From NCBI GenBank assembly GCA_945870505.1, contig CAMBSN010000030.1, forward strand, positions 1-33,037: a stretch of 33,037 nt of DNA. The letters run 5' to 3'. Source of the stretch: Candidatus Kuenenia stuttgartensis (GTDB lineage: Bacteria > Planctomycetota > Planctomycetia > Pirellulales > UBA1268). Of the stretch, positions 4,974 to 13,340 are shown piece after piece. The notes under the pieces were generated by a model. That model was not told the origin of the DNA. It did no database searches and worked only from the letters and a program-made list of their open reading frames with translations. The position numbers were made by a program, and so were the translations under genes. Each line of letters begins with the position of its first letter. Position 1 is the stretch's first letter.

Positions 4974-5000
4974 CTTTTCGCATGGGTGGTTGTCGAAAAG
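4974..5000. promoter_or_regulatory. Inverted repeat, candidate SufR operator
   Basis: CTTTTCG (4974-4980) and CGAAAAG (4994-5000) form a perfect 7-bp inverted repeat around 13 nt. It lies 16 nt before the preferred sufR start, in the divergent region shared with the small membrane gene. SufR proteins are known to repress their own suf operons, so an autoregulatory operator is expected here. The sequence does not match the cyanobacterial CAAC-N6-GTTG motif I remember, so this is inference from position and symmetry. Confidence 0.4.
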
Positions 5001-5016
5001 GCTTTCCGGCATAAAA

Positions 5017-5751
5017 ATGAAGGGTATGAACGGCTTCACGAGAGAATTTCGAGACTCAGACGCAGCGGTCGTGGACCTGCTGCGGGGAGACACGTCGCTG
5101 GGCATCGGCGAGTTGGCGGATCATCTCGGCGTGACGGCTACGGCCGTTCGCCAGCGGCTGGATCGGCTCATGCAGGCTGGCATGGTTGAGCGGAGAGCGG
5201 TGGCAAAGCCCCGTGGTCGTCCGTCGCATGCCTACAGCCTCACGGCCACCGGCCGACGGCTGGGTGGCGACAACTTTCGCGATCTGGCGATGGTGCTCTG
5301 GAAAGAAGTTCGCTCGGTGACGGAGGTGACCGTCCGGCGGGGCCTCCTTAATAGGATCGCCGGCGGGCTGGCCGATGTGTACCGCGACCGCGTGACGGGC
5401 AAAACACCGGCTGAGCGGCTTGCGGACGTGGCTGCCGTCTTCAACGACCGCAACGTGGCCTGCTCCGTTGAGCATGGCGCCCTGCCGGTCCTGACAAGCT
5501 ATTCCTGCCCCTACCCCGACCTGGCGGAACAGGATCGGGCGATCTGTTCCGCCGAACGGCTGATGATCCAAGAACTCGTGGGCACGGCGGTGCAACTCTC
5601 GGAATGCCGCCTTGACGGTGCCCCGTGCTGCCGGTTCACGGCGGCGGGCACCGAGGGCGATCTGCCCCAATGGCTTGAAAGAAAGCCGGTTCCATCATCG
5701 AATGCCGGTCAGTTTCCCGTCCCCTCGACCGCTCCGGAGAGCCTCTCATGA
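5017..5751 (+). CDS. sufR: SufR-type iron-sulfur-sensing transcriptional repressor
   Basis: A 244-residue regulator at the head of the SUF operon. Residues ~15-75 form a winged helix-turn-helix ([20 protein letters not shown]...). The C-terminal half carries the cysteines expected to bind an Fe-S cluster: Cys164 and Cys177 (C-x12-C in the CPYPDL region), then Cys197, Cys204 and Cys205. In known SufR proteins the cluster-loaded form represses suf transcription and cluster loss derepresses it. The ATG at 5017 is preferred; an in-frame TTG at 4990 would overlap the inverted repeat, and ATG at 5026 is also possible. The 3' end overlaps nuoB in an ATGA junction. The C-terminal ~20 residues, rich in Pro and Ser, are probably disordered. 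Confidence 0.85.
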
Positions 5752-6380
5752 CCGTGCCTGCAGCCGATGCCAGTCTCGCCAAGCCCTGGATCGAGGGCCG
5801 CTTCGAGGAAAACCTCGTCCTCACCACGGTCGAGCAGGCGATCAACTGGGCTCGGCAGTCGAGCATCTGGCCGATGACGTTCGGCCTGGCATGCTGCGCC
5901 ATCGAGATGATGGCCGCTGGCGCCAGCCGGTACGACATGGACCGCTTCGGGGCCGGCGCTTTTCGCGCCACGCCCCGGCAGGCCGACCTGATGATCGTGG
6001 CGGGCACGGTGACCTATAAGATGGCCAGCCGCGTCCGACGGCTCTACAACCTGATGCCCGATCCGAAGTACGTGATCGCCATGGGCGCCTGCACGACCGG
6101 TGGCGGCCCGTACTTCAAGTGGGGCTATCACGTCGTCAAGGGCGTCGACCTCGTCGTGCCGGTCGACGTCTACGTGCCCGGTTGCCCACCGCGTCCTGAG
6201 AGCCTTCTCGAGGGGCTGATGCGGATCCAAGACAAGATCCTCGGTCAGCGAATCGCGAAGCAGAAGGGCGGCGTTGGCAAAATCGACGACGAACTGCCCG
6301 TACCTCACCACTCCGGCTACGTCGCGCCGGCCGTGGACTTCGATGAGCTCGTGTTCAACCACCAGAAGGTCCAGCCCTGA
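5748..6380 (+). CDS. nuoB: NADH-quinone oxidoreductase subunit B-like protein inside the SUF operon
   Basis: A 210-residue NuoB homologue, the complex I subunit that holds the terminal [4Fe-4S] cluster N2 near the quinone site. All four cluster ligands are present: Cys49-Cys50 (LACCAIEMM), Cys115 (MGACTTGG) and Cys146 (VPGCPPRPE). The conserved [15 protein letters not shown] and [17 protein letters not shown] blocks are intact. The C-terminal ~45 residues are a longer tail. The ATG overlaps the sufR stop by 4 nt (ATGA), so translation is probably coupled. No other nuo gene is in the window, which makes the location unusual: it may be the only nuoB of the cell displaced into the suf operon, or a paralogue. 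It is not a broken copy. Confidence 0.88.
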
Positions 6381-6450: not shown

Positions 6451-7296
6451 ATGCCTTCCGCCGCCGAACAACTCGTCATCAAGGGCCTCCACGTCTCTGT
6501 CGAGGGGCAGGAGATTCTCAAGGGGGTTGATCTCACGATCGGCCGCGGCGAGGTGCACGCGCTCATGGGCCCCAACGGCTCCGGGAAGAGCACGCTCGGC
6601 TATGCGATCATGGGTCACCCGTCCTACGAAGTGACGGCCGGCTCGATCGAGATCGTGGATCCGAGCGGGGCGCGGCACGACGTGCTCGCCATGGAGCCGG
6701 ACCAACGGGCCCGGGCCGGCCTGTTTCTCGCGTTCCAGCGGCCGATGTCGATTCCGGGGGTGCGGCTCGCCGACTTCCTGCGGCACGCGGTCACCAACTG
6801 CCGCAATCCCGACCGCAAGGAGGGGCAGGAACTGATGCCGATGCGGGAGTTTCGCAACGAGCTCAAGGCCAAGATGGCCGAACTCTCGATGGATACCGAG
6901 TTTGCCCGCCGCTACGTCAACGACGGCTTCTCGGGGGGCGAGATGAAGCGGGCGGAGATCCTCCAGCTCGCGATGCTGCGGCCGAAGTTCGCCGTGCTCG
7001 ACGAGACCGACAGTGGCCTCGATGCCGACGCCGTGCGGCTCGCCAGCGAGAGCATCGCCCGGATTGGCGGCGCTGAGATGGGCATCCTCATCATCACCCA
7101 CCACGAACAGCTGCTCGAGCACAACATTCCGCTGCAGACCCACGTCATGCTCGGCGGTCGAATCGTGGAATCGGGCGGGCCGGAACTCGCCCGGGAACTC
7201 CACAAGCTGGGCTACGAGCGGATTCGAGCCGCCTATCCCGACGCCGCCGCCGCGGAGAAGGCGATGGAGGAGTCGGCCAAGGCGGCCGCCGTCTGA
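6451..7296 (+). CDS. sufC: SUF Fe-S assembly ATPase SufC
   Basis: ABC-type ATPase of the SufBCD scaffold, which assembles Fe-S clusters in the cytosol; it is not a transporter. Walker A is GPNGSGKST (40-48), the signature [10 protein letters not shown] (Ser161 on), Walker B plus D-loop [15 protein letters not shown] (from 181, Asp184-Glu185), and the switch His lies in ITHHEQ. The LDE-x-DSGLD form is characteristic of SufC rather than ABC transporters. The product is 281 residues, about 30 longer than usual, mainly through a C-terminal tail rich in Ala and Glu. The start at 6451 precedes the first conserved strand; in-frame sequence upstream overlaps nuoB. No clear ribosome binding site. A 70-nt gap follows nuoB; sufB begins 35 nt downstream. 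Confidence 0.95.
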
Positions 7297-7331: not shown

Positions 7332-8756
7332 ATGGCCACGGGACTCGACGAATCAGCGACGCTTGATGTCCGCCCTGAAATTGGGGAGATCAACAAGTAC
7401 GACTTCCGCACCGACTCCCCGGCCGTGTTCAAGGCCCGGAAGGGCGTTGACGCGGAGATCGTCGCGCAGATCTCCGACATGAAGAAGGAGCCCGCCTGGA
7501 TGCGGGACTTCCGCCTGAAGTCGCTGGAGATCTTCGAATCGAAGCCGATGCCAAACTGGGGCGGCCATATCGGCGTCGACTTCCAAGACATCTACTACTA
7601 CCTCAAGCCCACGGAGCATCAGGGCAAGACGTGGGAAGAGGTGCCGGATGCCATCAAAAAGACGTTCGACCGGCTCGGCATCCCCGAGGCCGAAAGGAAG
7701 TTTCTCTCCGGCGTGAAGGCCCAGTTCGAGAGCGAGGTGGTCTATGGCTCGCTGCAGGAGGATCTCGCCAAGAAGGGTGTGATCTTCACCGACACCGACA
7801 CGGCCGTCCGCGAGCACTCCGACCTGCTCCGCCAGTACTTCGGCACCATCATCCCGCCCACCGACAACAAGTTCGCCGCGCTCAACTCCGCCGTCTGGTC
7901 GGGTGGCTCGTTTATCTACGTCCCCAAAGGGGTGAAGATCGAGTTCCCGCTCCAGGCCTACTTCCGCATCAACGCCGAGAGCATGGGGCAGTTCGAGCGG
8001 ACGCTGATCATCGTCGACGAGGGAGCGCAGGTGCACTACGTCGAGGGCTGCACGGCGCCGATGTACTCCACCGAGAGCCTCCACTCGGCAGTGGTCGAGA
8101 TCGTGGTCAAGAAGCACGGCCGCTGTCGCTACACCACGATCCAAAACTGGGCCAACAACATCTATAACCTCGTCACCAAGCGGGCCATGGCCTACGAGGG
8201 GGCGTTGATGGAGTGGATTGACGGCAACCTCGGCAGCCACCTGACGATGAAGTATCCGGCCGTCTACTTGATGGAGCCGGGCGCCCGCGGCGAGATCCTC
8301 TCGATCGCGTTTGCTTCGGCCGGGCAGCATCAGGACGCCGGCGCGAAGATCGTGCACGTCGCACCGAATACGAGCGGCAGGATCGTCTCGAAGAGCATCT
8401 CGAAGAATGGTGGCCGGGCGAGCTACCGCGGCCTCGTGAAGGTCGAGCCGGGCGCGACGAAGAGCAAGTCGAGCGTGGTCTGCGACGCCCTGATCCTTGA
8501 CGACAGAAGCCGCAGCGACACCTATCCGTACATCGAGATCGAGGAGCAGGACGTCTCCATCGGTCACGAGGCGAGCGTTTCCAAGATCGGCGAGGAGCAG
8601 CTCTTCTACCTGATGAGCCGCGGCCTCACCGAGGCGGAGGCGAGCACGATGATCGTCGGCGGGTTCATCGAGCCGCTCGTCAAGGAGCTGCCGATGGAAT
8701 ATGCCGTGGAGATGAACCGGCTGATCGAACTGCAGATGGAAGGCTCGGTGGGCTGA
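7332..8756 (+). CDS. sufB: SUF Fe-S assembly protein SufB
   Basis: Core scaffold subunit of SufBC2D, 474 residues, the normal length. The right-handed beta-helix region and conserved C-terminal blocks are intact: the [13 protein letters not shown] segment, Cys384 in VVCDAL, and the [22 protein letters not shown] segment. By motif alignment Cys384 corresponds to the sulfur-accepting Cys405 of E. coli SufB, and the His-Glu of GHEA to its H433/E434. AGGAG lies 8 nt before the ATG, the best ribosome binding site in this operon. sufD follows after 8 nt. Together with SufC and SufD it builds [4Fe-4S] clusters for cytosolic apoproteins. Confidence 0.96.
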
Positions 8757-8764
8757 CCTACCCC

Positions 8765-10195
8765 ATGAGCACCGCCACGGCCTCTCCACGAGCCGCGTTC
8801 GACGCGGCCCTTCTTGAGCGGATCATTGCCTCGTCGTCGCTGCCGTCGTGGGCGAGCGACGTCCGCCGCGCCGCGTTCGACCGGTTCGTGTCACTCGGCC
8901 TACCTGGTCGCCGTGACGAGAGCTGGATGCGGACGGATGTTCGGCTCTTCAAGCCCCAGGCTTGGGGCCCGAGTGCGGCCCCGACGTCGCCCACTGTCCC
9001 CGAGGGCCTGCTCGCGCCCGCGATTCTCTCGGGCGACCTGGCGGCAGATTCTTACGCCGATTTCGACCGGGCACAGGCACCTTTTGCGTCGCAGCACGCG
9101 GCGGCCGGCTCCGCTGCTGCTCCTGGTGCCGGAGGGAAACTAGCCGGCCGGTTGGCTTCCGTGGATGGCCACGTCGTTCGCCACGAACTCGATCCGGCGC
9201 TGGCCGCGAAAGGTGTGGTCTTCGGGCCGGCCGATGAACTGCTCGCCAGCCATGCCGATGCCCTGCGGCCGCACTGGTTCCGCGTCATTGACACAGGTTG
9301 CGACTGGTTCGCGGCCGCTCACGCCGCATTCCATTCCGCCAGCTCCGTGCTCTACGTGCCGCCGGGTGTGCGGATCGCCGATCCGCTCCACGTGATCGCT
9401 GGCATGAGCGACGGCGGCGTCGACACATCGCACGTGCTCGTGGTCCTCGGCGAGGGTGCCGAGGCGACGGTGCTCACCGAGACGGCCGGCGGTGGTGCCA
9501 CTGGCACGGCTGGTGGCTTCCACTGCGGGGGCACCGAGATCGTCGTCGGCAAGGGTGCCTTCCTGCGGATGGTGAACCTCCAAAACTGGAACACGGGCGT
9601 CTGGCACTTCGCCCGCCAGAAGGCAGTGGTGCAAGCGAGCGGCCGGCTCCAGTGGACGCTCGGCGCTCTCGGCAGCCGTCTCTCGCAGGTTGCTCAGGAT
9701 GTCGCGCTCGCGGGCCGCGGCGCGTCGGCCCAGGTGAACGGCGTGATGTTCACCGAGGGCCGTCAGCACCTCGTCTACAACACCCTCCAGCACCACGAAG
9801 CTCCCTCCTGTACCAGCGACTTGCTCTACAAGGGCGCGCTTCAGGGCAAGAGCCGGCTCGTCTGGCGGGGCATGATCAAGGTCGACAAGGCCGCGCAGAA
9901 GACCGACGGCTACCAGCGGAACGACAACCTGATGCTCTCGACCGAGGCCCGGGCCGACTCGATCCCCGGCCTGGAGATCGAGGCCGATGACGTCCGCTGC
10001 ACCCACGGGGCGACCAGCGGCCGCGTCGATGCCGAGCAGATCTTCTACGCCCGGGCCCGCGGCCTCTCGGCCGAGGAGGCCGCGCGGCTCGTGGTCGCCG
10101 GTTTTTTCCAGCAGGTGTTCGACCGGATCACGATCCCCCAGGTCCGCGAAGCGCTCGCCAAGGCGATCGGCGGCCGCATCCACAGGATCGCGTGA
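8765..10195 (+). CDS. sufD: SUF Fe-S assembly protein SufD
   Basis: Paralogue of SufB and third member of the SufBC2D complex, 476 residues. The conserved C-terminal half is clear: VVQASGRLQWTLGALG, GLEIEADDVRCTHGATSGRVDAEQIFYARARGL. His414 in CTHGAT corresponds by motif to His360 of E. coli SufD, implicated in cluster assembly at the SufB-SufD interface. The N-terminal ~150 residues are more divergent, with an Ala/Gly-rich stretch around 115-130. The start is 8 nt after the sufB stop without a clear ribosome binding site. The 3' end overlaps a possible GTG of the next gene (GTGA). Confidence 0.94.
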   Translation: MSTATASPRAAFDAALLERIIASSSLPSWASDVRRAAFDRFVSLGLPGRRDESWMRTDVRLFKPQAWGPSAAPTSPTVPEGLLAPAILSGDLAADSYADFDRAQAPFASQHAAAGSAAAPGAGGKLAGRLASVDGHVVRHELDPALAAKGVVFGPADELLASHADALRPHWFRVIDTGCDWFAAAHAAFHSASSVLYVPPGVRIADPLHVIAGMSDGGVDTSHVLVVLGEGAEATVLTETAGGGATGTAGGFHCGGTEIVVGKGAFLRMVNLQNWNTGVWHFARQKAVVQASGRLQWTLGALGSRLSQVAQDVALAGRGASAQVNGVMFTEGRQHLVYNTLQHHEAPSCTSDLLYKGALQGKSRLVWRGMIKVDKAAQKTDGYQRNDNLMLSTEARADSIPGLEIEADDVRCTHGATSGRVDAEQIFYARARGLSAEEAARLVVAGFFQQVFDRITIPQVREALAKAIGGRIHRIA

Positions 10196-10203
10196 GTCCA
10201 CCG

Positions 10204-10968
10204 ATGACAGAGTTTGTCCGCGTCGCCGATATCGCCGAGATTCCCGATCCGGGCAAGACGCTCGTCGAAGTCGATGGCGATATGGTCGCGTTATTTCACG
10301 TCGGCGGCACGTTCTACGCCATCGACGACGTCTGCACGCACGACGGTGGTCCGCTCGCCGACGGCGAACTTCGTGACTACAAGATCGCCTGCCCGAGGCA
10401 CGGTGCGAAGTTCGACATTCGCACCGGTGCCGCCCTGTCGATGCCTGCCGTGCGGCCGACCCGTGCCCACGACGTGAAGGTGGAGAACGGTGGCGTGTGG
10501 GTACGCCTCCGATCGGCGGCCGGGGCCGGCACTTCGCCTCTGCACGGTGCGATCGCGGTGCCGGTGGTTCCGACATCGACCTGCTGCACGCCAGCGGCGA
10601 GCCGCGAGGCGGGCGAATTGACGGCGGAATCGACTGGCGCCGGCGGGCCGCTCTGTGAGGACCGCGTCCGCGAGATGCTCAAAGAGGTCAAGGACCCCGA
10701 GCTGTTCGTGAACATCGTGGACCTTGGCCTGATCTACGGCGTCACGCTCTCACCGGCGGCCGACGTGCCTGGCAAGCAGCACGTGTCGATCGACATGACG
10801 ATGACGAGCCCCGCCTGCCCAGCGGGTCCGCAGCTGATCGCCGACACCAAGCGGGCTGTGGGCGCGAGCCCCGAGGTGTCGGCCGTGGAAGTCCGGATCG
10901 TGATGGATCCACCCTGGACGCCCGACCGGATGACAGAATCAGCCCGCGACCAGCTCGGAATTTTCTGA
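10204..10968 (+). CDS. Rieske [2Fe-2S] - MIP18/SufT fusion protein
   Basis: Two domains in one 254-residue protein. Residues ~3-105 are a Rieske-type ferredoxin with both ligand pairs intact: Cys44-x-His46 (CTHDGG) and Cys63-xx-His66 (CPRHGAKFD). Residues ~150-254 are a MIP18/DUF59 domain of the SufT/PaaD type (REMLKEVKDPELFVNIVDLG, then MTSPACPAG with Cys205, then a PPWTPDRM block). SufT-like proteins help deliver [4Fe-4S] clusters. The linker (~106-149) holds a Cys-Cys pair. ATG at 10204 is preferred because homology begins there; a GTG at 10192 overlapping the sufD stop would add four residues. It is the last gene of the operon. I infer a role in Fe-S trafficking or electron supply for assembly. 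No sufS or sufU follows. Confidence 0.85.
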   Translation: MTEFVRVADIAEIPDPGKTLVEVDGDMVALFHVGGTFYAIDDVCTHDGGPLADGELRDYKIACPRHGAKFDIRTGAALSMPAVRPTRAHDVKVENGGVWVRLRSAAGAGTSPLHGAIAVPVVPTSTCCTPAASREAGELTAESTGAGGPLCEDRVREMLKEVKDPELFVNIVDLGLIYGVTLSPAADVPGKQHVSIDMTMTSPACPAGPQLIADTKRAVGASPEVSAVEVRIVMDPPWTPDRMTESARDQLGIF

Positions 10969-10987: not shown

Positions 10988-11012
10988 CGTAGCACAGGTT
11001 TTCAACCTCTGC
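10988..11012 (+). repeat. Family B repeat unit, slightly degenerate
   Basis: CGTAG, CACAGGTT, TTC, then AACCTCTG with one change from the consensus arm. It starts 19 nt after the last gene of the SUF operon, in its sense orientation. Confidence 0.75.
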
Positions 11013-11200: not shown

Positions 11201-11248
11201 CGTAGCACAGGTTTTCAACCTGTGTGATCCCCCGTAGCACACCTGTGT
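11201..11248 (+). repeat. Family B repeats, one intact and one truncated
   Basis: An intact unit at 11201-11224 (loop TTC) is followed at 11233-11248 by a shortened one, CGTAGCAC joined directly to ACCTGTGT, that has lost one arm and the loop. mfnD starts 25 nt later. Confidence 0.75.
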
Positions 11249-11272: not shown

Positions 11273-12328
11273 ATGCGTCTTGTCATCTACGAATGGTGCT
11301 GCTCCGGCGGGCTTGCCGGGCCCGACCGTGAACTCGTGGTTCATCCTGGCGACGACGTGAACTCGCTCGCCCGTGAGGGGCGGGCGATGTTCGCCGCGCT
11401 AGTCGCCGACGCGGTGCGCGACGGCGGCTTCGACGTCGCCGCCCTCGTCGATGAGTCGCTGCCACTGAAACTGCCGGCCGCCCCACGGCGGGTCGTTGTG
11501 CCTCGCGGCCGCGAGGTCGAAGCGCTCGTCGCGGCGGCTCGGGACGCCGATGGTGTCATTCTGGTCGCGCCCGAGACGGCGGGCGTGCTGGCGGCGCGGG
11601 TGGAGTTGGTTCGGTCGGCCGGGGGCACGGTGCTCGGCCCTTCGACGTCGGTCATCCGACTCGCGGCCGACAAGCAGGCCACGATCGATGCGCTGGCCGC
11701 GGCCGGTGTGCCCGTGCCCGCCGGACGCTCGCTCGCAGCAGGCGAGGCGTGGCCAGCCGGCTTTCACCTGCCGGCCGTCCGCAAGGCTCGGACCAGCACC
11801 GGCTGTGATGGCCTCGTGATCGTCCGCCCGGGCGACCCACTCCCCTGCCCCGCCCCCGTGGCCACAAGGCTCGAAGCCGAATGTGCCGGTCAGCCGGTCG
11901 GCGTGTCGTGCCTGATCGGGCCGCAGGGCGTCGTGCCATTCGCGGCGCTCGTGCAGCAGTTCTCGTCTGGGCCGCTGCCTGGCTATGCCGGCGGAGAGCC
12001 GCTGCGTGACACGGGCGAACAATGCCGGGCGGAGGGGTTGGCCGTGCGCGCCGTCGAGGCCCTTCTCCGCCGCGATCCCGACACCGCCCACGCTGGCTGG
12101 GTTGGAGTCGATATGATCCTCGGGGGTCGTCCCGACGGCCTCGATGACCGCGTGCTGGAGGTGAATCCTCGCGTGACCACGTCGTTCGTCGGGCTCGCAG
12201 CCGCGGCACCAGCGAGCCTCGTCCGAGCGATTGTGGATGCGGCCGCCGGTCGCAAGTTCGGCCCTACGGCACTGCCGGCAGGATTCACCTTCACGATCAC
12301 CGATGACGTCCTCTCCTTTCCGACGTGA
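11273..12328 (+). CDS. mfnD: ATP-grasp ligase, probable tyramine--L-glutamate ligase of methanofuran-type cofactor synthesis
   Basis: A 351-residue ATP-grasp protein. The N-terminal ~110 residues form a pre-ATP-grasp domain (MRLVIYEWCCSGGL...). The ATP-grasp part includes LAADKQATIDALAAAGVPVP and the metal-binding Glu296-x-Asn298-Pro-Arg (LEVNPRVTTSFVG). ATP-grasp alone does not fix the substrate. The call rests on its two overlapping neighbours, which fit MfnF and MfnE; MfnD joins glutamate to tyramine in archaeal methanofuran synthesis, and related genes occur in methylotrophs and planctomycetes with tetrahydromethanopterin-linked C1 transfer. The ATG has no ribosome binding site. The 3' end overlaps mfnF by 26 nt, a strong operon sign. 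Confidence 0.72.
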   Translation: MRLVIYEWCCSGGLAGPDRELVVHPGDDVNSLAREGRAMFAALVADAVRDGGFDVAALVDESLPLKLPAAPRRVVVPRGREVEALVAAARDADGVILVAPETAGVLAARVELVRSAGGTVLGPSTSVIRLAADKQATIDALAAAGVPVPAGRSLAAGEAWPAGFHLPAVRKARTSTGCDGLVIVRPGDPLPCPAPVATRLEAECAGQPVGVSCLIGPQGVVPFAALVQQFSSGPLPGYAGGEPLRDTGEQCRAEGLAVRAVEALLRRDPDTAHAGWVGVDMILGGRPDGLDDRVLEVNPRVTTSFVGLAAAAPASLVRAIVDAAAGRKFGPTALPAGFTFTITDDVLSFPT

Positions 12329-13340
12329 CGTGCTGGCCCTCGATATCGGAGGCGCGAACATCAAGGCGGCCGACGGGACGGGCTGGACGCATGCCGAACC
12401 ATTCGCGATGTGGCGCGACGCCCCGCGGCTCGCTGACGTGCTCAAGCGGATCGCCCGCGACGCTGGGCCGCGACGGATCGTCGCCACGATGACCGGCGAG
12501 ATCGCCGACTGCTTCGGCTCTCGGGCCGAAGGGGTTTCGCACATCGTCCAAGCGGTGGTGACGGCGGCCGAATCCTGTGGGTGCGAATCCCCCGGGATCT
12601 ACCGAATCGATGGCCGGATCATTTCGCCGGACGACGCGGCTGTTGATCCACTCGGCGTCGCGGCGAGCAACTGGCACGCCGTCGCACGGCTCGCAGCGTC
12701 GTTTGTGCCGCACGCGCGGGCACTGCTCGTGGACATCGGCTCGACCACCTGCGACATCGTGCCGCTCGCCGGCGGCCGGCCCGCGCCGTTAGCCGATGAC
12801 GATGCCGGGAGGATGGCGACGGGCGAACTCGTCTACACCGGCGTCGAGCGGACGCCCGTTCCTGCGATCGTCCGCGGACTACCGCATCGGGGCATCCGCC
12901 GACCGGCTGCGAGCGAGCGGTTTGCGGAGTCGCGGGATGCCTGGCTCATCCTCAGAGGCCTCACGGAGAATCCGGCGTCGAGAGACACGGCTGACGGCGG
13001 CCCCTTCACCTACGACGCCTCCCGCATCCGGCTGGCCAGGGCGATGCTCCTGGAACCCGCCGCGGTGACGGCCGCCGATGCGGAGCAGGCCGCCAGATGG
13101 ATCGCCGAGGCCCAGGCCCGGCAGGTGGCCCGGGCGATCGATCGAGTGGCCCGGCGGTGCGGGGGAAGACCGGAGGCCGTTGTCTTTTCAGGTCACGGCG
13201 AGCCACTTGCGCGCATGGCCCTCGATCGGCTCGGCTGGAGCCTTGCTGCTGTGTCGTTGCCGGCCGTCGTCGGAGCGGCCGTCTCCCGGTCGGCACCCGC
13301 CCATGCCCTCGCCCTCATCGCCCGGGGAGAGCTTTCATGA
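12303..13340 (+). CDS. mfnF: MfnF-like protein (H4MPT-linked C1 transfer pathway protein, hydantoinase/oxoprolinase-like)
   Basis: A 345-residue ASKHA-fold protein. An N-terminal phosphate-binding motif LDIGGANIKAADG (13-25) and a second, LLVDIGSTTCDIVPL (Asp144), are followed by a late VFSGHGEP motif (~293-300). This layout is that of the family annotated as H4MPT-linked C1 transfer pathway protein; the archaeal member MfnF joins the furan phosphate to gamma-glutamyltyramine. ATG at 12303 is chosen because homology starts with the DIGG strand; it overlaps the end of mfnD by 26 nt in another frame. The stop overlaps the mfnE start by 4 nt (ATGA). In bacteria the product is probably a methylofuran-like cofactor. 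I am confident of the family, less of the exact reaction. Confidence 0.8.
   Translation: MTSSPFRRDVLALDIGGANIKAADGTGWTHAEPFAMWRDAPRLADVLKRIARDAGPRRIVATMTGEIADCFGSRAEGVSHIVQAVVTAAESCGCESPGIYRIDGRIISPDDAAVDPLGVAASNWHAVARLAASFVPHARALLVDIGSTTCDIVPLAGGRPAPLADDDAGRMATGELVYTGVERTPVPAIVRGLPHRGIRRPAASERFAESRDAWLILRGLTENPASRDTADGGPFTYDASRIRLARAMLLEPAAVTAADAEQAARWIAEAQARQVARAIDRVARRCGGRPEAVVFSGHGEPLARMALDRLGWSLAAVSLPAVVGAAVSRSAPAHALALIARGELS

Follow-up and report, generated by a model that had tools for sequence, protein, structure and literature searches.

A recurrent Rieske-SufT fusion at the end of a planctomycete SUF operon: a possible tethered electron donor in iron-sulfur cluster maturation

Introduction

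Why would a Rieske-type electron carrier be joined in one polypeptide to a SufT domain? The question is raised by a gene for a protein of 254 amino acids in a stretch of 33,037 nucleotides (hereafter the window), which is contig C30 of a planctomycete metagenome-assembled genome of 3.35 Mb (87% complete). In the original prediction, such a fused carrier was not known to have been characterised. This stands as far as function is concerned, since we found no functional study of Rieske-SufT proteins in the open-licence literature; the architecture itself, however, had already been catalogued as 'S7', in 3 of 761 SufT homologs, by Mashruwala et al. (2016; PMC4982691), who give it no function. By its description there, 'S7' is like the window protein in combining an N-terminal Rieske iron-oxygenase-type ferredoxin domain with DUF59 in one chain. 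The two differ in that 'S7' is only listed, whereas the fusion described here is fixed in a planctomycete clade, recurrent, and encoded by the last gene of a conserved SUF operon. The survey also holds that SufT fusions tend to persist once formed. New here are the fixation in a clade, the recurrence, the specificity for one gene junction, the operon context, a cysteine pair that proved not to be conserved and an exceptional homolog that lacks the cluster ligands.

Results and discussion

The fusion gene closes a SUF operon

The genes of the operon are as follows:

4990..5751, plus strand: SufR-like winged-helix regulator
5748..6380, plus strand: nuoB-like gene within the operon
6451..7296, plus strand: sufC
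7332..8756, plus strand: sufB
8765..10195, plus strand: sufD
10204..10968, plus strand: Rieske-SufT fusion gene, 254 amino acids

The original prediction placed the fusion at the end of a SUF operon, and the NCBIfam assignments bear this out: sufC (TIGR01978, 303 bits, cut-off 213), sufB (TIGR01980, 708 bits, cut-off 346) and sufD (TIGR01981, 261 bits, cut-off 222) precede it in the order sufR-nuoB-sufC-sufB-sufD-[Rieske-SufT], and the fusion gene, the last, starts 8 nt past sufD. Its open frame runs from an ATG at 10204 to a stop at 10966-10968; a GTG in the same frame lies a little upstream, at 10192, where sufD has not yet ended. The first gene is a putative sufR, so named from a sub-threshold match (its best in NCBIfam, TIGR02702 SufR, at 39 bits below a cut-off of 178.8) and from its position, which is the same in relatives. 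The nuoB-like gene (PF01058; TIGR01957, 232 bits, cut-off 143) occupies the same spot in many Planctomycetia operons. A further NuoB, 51% identical to the operon copy, is encoded in one of the nuo clusters, that of contig C4; within the stretch read of a second nuo cluster, on contig C14, no NuoB was found. Among the other iron-sulfur genes of the genome are those for two desulfurases, one IscS-like with an A-type protein as its neighbour and one related to SufS/CsdA, and for an ApbC/Mrp protein with DUF59. No NifU_N scaffold was detected in this genome, which is 87% complete.

Downstream of the operon lie an ATP-grasp protein with a weak likeness to the tyramine-glutamate ligase MfnD (11273-12328) and a hydantoinase/oxoprolinase-type protein (12258-13340); together they hint at a C1-carrier (methanofuran-like) cofactor pathway. 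A short palindromic intergenic repeat, approximately GCACAGGTTTTCAACCTGTGC, is found at 10992-11012, at 11205-11225 and at 17 more places in the window, some of these 19 matches being the same palindrome on both strands, against 0 expected by chance. With up to one mismatch and both strands counted, it has 244 matches in the genome, and it looks like a REP-type element.

Two constrained domains flank a disordered linker

Within the fusion gene we distinguish:

10204..10515, plus strand: Rieske-type [2Fe-2S] ferredoxin domain, residues 1-104
10333-10335, 10339-10341, 10390-10392 and 10399-10401, plus strand: Rieske ligands C44, H46, C63 and H66 (C-x-H ... C-x2-H)
10516..10641, plus strand: flexible linker rich in Ala/Pro/Ser/Thr/Gly, residues 105-146
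10582-10587, plus strand: Cys127-Cys128 pair in the linker, not conserved
10642..10965, plus strand: DUF59/MIP18 (SufT) domain, residues 147-254
10816-10818, plus strand: SufT cysteine C205, conserved alongside D164-P165-E166 and T201

The fusion of a Rieske to a MIP18/SufT domain, as it had first been read from the DNA, is upheld by both Pfam families in one open frame, with the ligands and Cys205 present. PF00355 matches residues 5-87 (58.7 bits against a cut-off of 20.3, E=5.6e-16), and PF01883 (FeS_assembly_P) matches residues 152-230 over positions 1-73 of the 73 of the model (59.4 bits against 23.5, E=4.4e-16). Structure prediction, which had been proposed as a check, gave two confident domains around a disordered segment: AlphaFold2 (20 fused homologs) reached a pLDDT mostly above 90 in both domains and below 50 at residues 108-111 and 113-145 of the linker, and from the pTM of 0.46 the Rieske and SufT domains would have no fixed mutual orientation. 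Compared with near relatives, the window has a pN/pS of 0.08-0.16 in the Rieske part and 0.03-0.10 in SufT, against 0.34-0.81 in the linker, and the motifs of both domains are retained as patterned in 63 of 65 distinct fused proteins. The two domains are under strong purifying selection and are joined by a loose tether.

The linker, which stands out by its low pLDDT, composition and pN/pS, is 41-69 codons long in the window's clade, always in frame and differing in sequence. The original prediction was that its Cys-Cys pair could form an additional metal or redox site. This is probably not the case, and we rejected the idea: the pair occurs in the window, its nearest relatives and sporadically elsewhere (L058 and L210), and is not conserved, most of the 65 distinct fused proteins having no such pair. 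An internal start yielding a separate SufT was likewise set aside. The window does have an in-frame TTG 8 codons upstream of the SufT segment, but this is no conserved feature, as the last 30 linker codons contain no ATG, GTG or TTG in 23 of 46 distinct clade proteins and 37 of the 46 have no linker ATG at all.

The Rieske half

The nearest solved structures found by Foldseek are the dioxygenase ferredoxins 5bok (TM-score 0.94 by target length) and 2qpz. With these and 1fqt the domain shares the fold, the CxH/CxxH ligands, a low-potential box and about 31-36% identity by structural alignment; it differs from them in its associations: they serve oxygenases, and the domain here has SUF genes around it and SufT at the other end of its tether. 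High-potential Rieske proteins of bc1 complexes have Ser/Tyr hydrogen-bond donors and extra cysteines. Here the box reads CTHDGG...CPRHGAKF, with no extra cysteines and Ala/Phe at the Ser/Tyr positions, and by this analogy a low-potential soluble carrier is expected. Rieske-type ferredoxins usually lie near -150 mV and are less reducing than ISC ferredoxins, because of which persulfide reduction is predicted to be marginal for a protein of this type.

Given these best matches in sequence and fold, could the Rieske part be a catabolic dioxygenase ferredoxin that adjoins the SUF genes by chance? The NCBIfam models for such ferredoxins (HcaC and AndAb types) come near (92.9 against 113, 73.2 against 150 and 68.6 against 150 bits), yet every cut-off is missed. 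Moreover, no flanking gene examined matches an oxygenase family, and synteny with SUF genes holds across Planctomycetia; other phyla, too, have Rieske genes within their SUF operons. In Paraburkholderia and Cupriavidus sufT is followed by an adjacent Rieske gene, and in the actinomycete Nonomuraea the order is sufD-Rieske-sufC...sufT. The presence of Rieske genes in SUF operons of Burkholderiales and an actinomycete supports a general link between the two, as far as gene order can tell, and we consider a chance neighbourhood very improbable.

A different alternative is that the domain is a docking, sensing or cluster-holding module, which would bring SufT to a partner or report cluster status, and no electron donor. 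In one fused homolog from a planctomycete metagenome-assembled genome (L196, 7001-7759), Q/D/C/D stand at the ligand positions, so that C44, H46 and H66 are lost and the SufT half is intact. Judging from these residues, that domain could hardly hold a Rieske cluster and may have another use there or be decaying; that it is retained at all indicates that the Rieske domain can persist without a normal cluster, and cautions against an obligatory redox role. Other SufT fusions have different modules at the N-terminus, among them a U-type scaffold in 'S5' (PMC4982691), which also speaks for such a module. Against it, only one of the 65 distinct fused proteins departs from the ligand pattern, which the other 64 and every split Rieske gene examined retain. 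To our knowledge, His-ligated Rieske clusters are moreover not usual donors in cluster transfer. Overall, a module of this kind seems to us quite improbable.

The SufT half

Foldseek matches this half to the DUF59 structures 3lno, 5ird and 1uwd. Among aligned fused proteins DPE164-166 and T201-x3-C205 are invariant. The published SufT motif is DPE-X26-31-T-X2/3-C with a reactive Cys (PMC9045647); the spacer from DPE to T has 34 residues in the window, against X26-31 in that motif, and is shorter in the fusions of Planctomycetaceae. As both NCBIfam SufT equivalogs are missed (TIGR02945, SUF_assoc, 87.3 against 143.4 bits; TIGR03406, FeS_long_SufT, 103.5 against 202.6 bits), we file the domain as DUF59/SufT-type and under neither equivalog. 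It resembles stand-alone SufT/DUF59 proteins (S. aureus SufT; M. tuberculosis Rv1466, 5ird; T. maritima TM0487, 1uwd; B. anthracis 3lno) in its whole DUF59 fold, the DPE, the single conserved reactive Cys and, often, the SUF operon; unlike the window protein, these are without a Rieske domain, and in the window's clade DPE and T-x3-C stand a few residues further apart. HCF101/ApbC (Mrp), of which one is encoded in the window's genome (contig C4), also carries DUF59, at its N-terminus, in a multidomain Fe-S maturation factor, but there the partner is a P-loop NTPase instead of a Rieske domain. In another fused homolog (L163, 2956-3702) a short deletion, real or due to assembly error, takes out the conserved SufT stretch DLGLIY.

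SufT of M. tuberculosis binds no Fe-S cluster, and its Cys contacts SufS, SufU, aconitase and SufR (PMC9045647). Because of this, the SufT half is by analogy best read as a docking factor.

The fusion is real and fixed in the window's clade

Since the window is a metagenome-assembled contig, an assembly or sequencing error that merged two genes had to be considered. We searched 60 related genomes and scanned named genomes, which gave 46 distinct proteins for the window's clade. All 46 are fused and none is split; they come from tens of separately assembled genomes and their linkers differ in sequence and length. Same-family genomes with a complete locus have the full-length fusion in one open frame. 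Three same-genus genomes gave no match: their SUF locus is cut by contig ends or, in a half-complete genome, was not found. The clade members from named collections are planctomycete metagenome-assembled genomes, mostly from lakes and some labelled Pirellulales. We therefore reject a merging error, whose probability is practically negligible, and the earlier concern that relatives might always carry two separate genes falls away as well, with the fusion present throughout the clade and recurring elsewhere.

The fusion recurs at a single junction

The search of domain architectures and gene neighbourhoods that had been suggested showed the SUF context to be conserved beyond the clade. In the rest of Planctomycetia, Rieske and sufT are usually separate and adjacent, in the same operon position, and the operon order is the same in most loci examined. 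Nineteen further distinct fused proteins (65 overall) were found in Planctomycetaceae and scattered Pirellulales. We mapped the fused state on a SufB+SufD tree of 102 loci, from which the fused gene itself was excluded and short loci where the SufB query had matched SufD were filtered out. The window's clade forms one group of 22 rows, all fused. The tree calls for 9 changes of state, at least 6 of them forced by well-supported branches, with the root state split; this count is approximate, as several single-genome fusions are metagenome-assembled genomes, a few possibly errors, and some changes could be fissions. The same fusion seems to have originated on several occasions among relatives. 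In the phylum sample (392 genomes), full-length one-frame matches fell only in the window's class, among the matches listed. Outside Planctomycetota no fusion was seen in the plasmid and viral collections, where the plasmid hits examined are separate genes and the viral-contig hits cover the SufT half only. In some loci (L059, L120, L123 and L117-L119) the SufT gene has no adjoining Rieske gene and lies directly after sufD or away from the SUF genes, hence the coupling is not obligatory. A supposed SufB insert in L059 was discarded as a run of N.

Does the recurrence reflect more than the loss of a stop codon? The two products might simply be needed in similar amounts, with the linker letting each act alone and no electrons passing between them. 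Many relatives keep separate genes, the split genes are adjacent and in the same frame in 45 of 82 split loci with stop-to-start gaps down to 3 nt, and the linker is featureless and fast-evolving, all of which would suit such a history. However, at the Rieske-SufT junction 39 of 99 loci have a single frame, against 0 of 426 cases (71+75+98+88+94) at five other junctions of the same operons, despite similar or shorter median gaps (60-137 nt), and the fused state has been retained in all 46 distinct proteins of the clade. This bias and retention speak for a reason particular to the Rieske-SufT pair, which could also be free termini at that place. We consider a fusion for stoichiometry unlikely, if deserving of real weight. 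The specificity for one junction rather supports a functional coupling of Rieske and SufT, as far as gene structure can indicate, and is silent on what flows between them.

A possible tethered electron donor

Our tentative reading, which we hold at slightly under an even chance, is that two adjacent operon genes fused into a SUF-specific maturation factor in which a SufT-docked, tethered Rieske domain would act as electron donor. Cys205 would let the SufT domain dock on client proteins and/or the SUF machinery, by analogy with M. tuberculosis SufT, and the Rieske domain, on about 40-70 disordered residues, could swing between an electron source and the docked site, supplying single electrons. 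The likeliest use would be the reductive assembly of [4Fe-4S] from [2Fe-2S] units at the interface of SufBCD, carrier and client, so that the target is probably late, and probably [4Fe-4S], maturation; another would be to reduce sulfane sulfur or Fe(III) there. Being fused, the two parts would always be present at 1:1, and the donor would be locally concentrated. A bolder version, which we find rather improbable, is that Rieske-SufT is a dedicated SUF reductase, as Fdx is for ISC, uniting electron delivery and client docking in one swinging-arm protein; where Actinomycetota and Burkholderiales have separate Rieske genes in their SUF operons, these would serve the same function in trans.

Neither the role of DUF59/SufT nor the source of electrons for the SUF pathway is well established. 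The repeated fusion of this one pair, and of no other operon neighbours in our sample, points to a working partnership between the Rieske carrier and SufT, and the fusion, as a single soluble protein, lends itself to assays of electron transfer to the scaffolds, carriers and clients of the SUF pathway.
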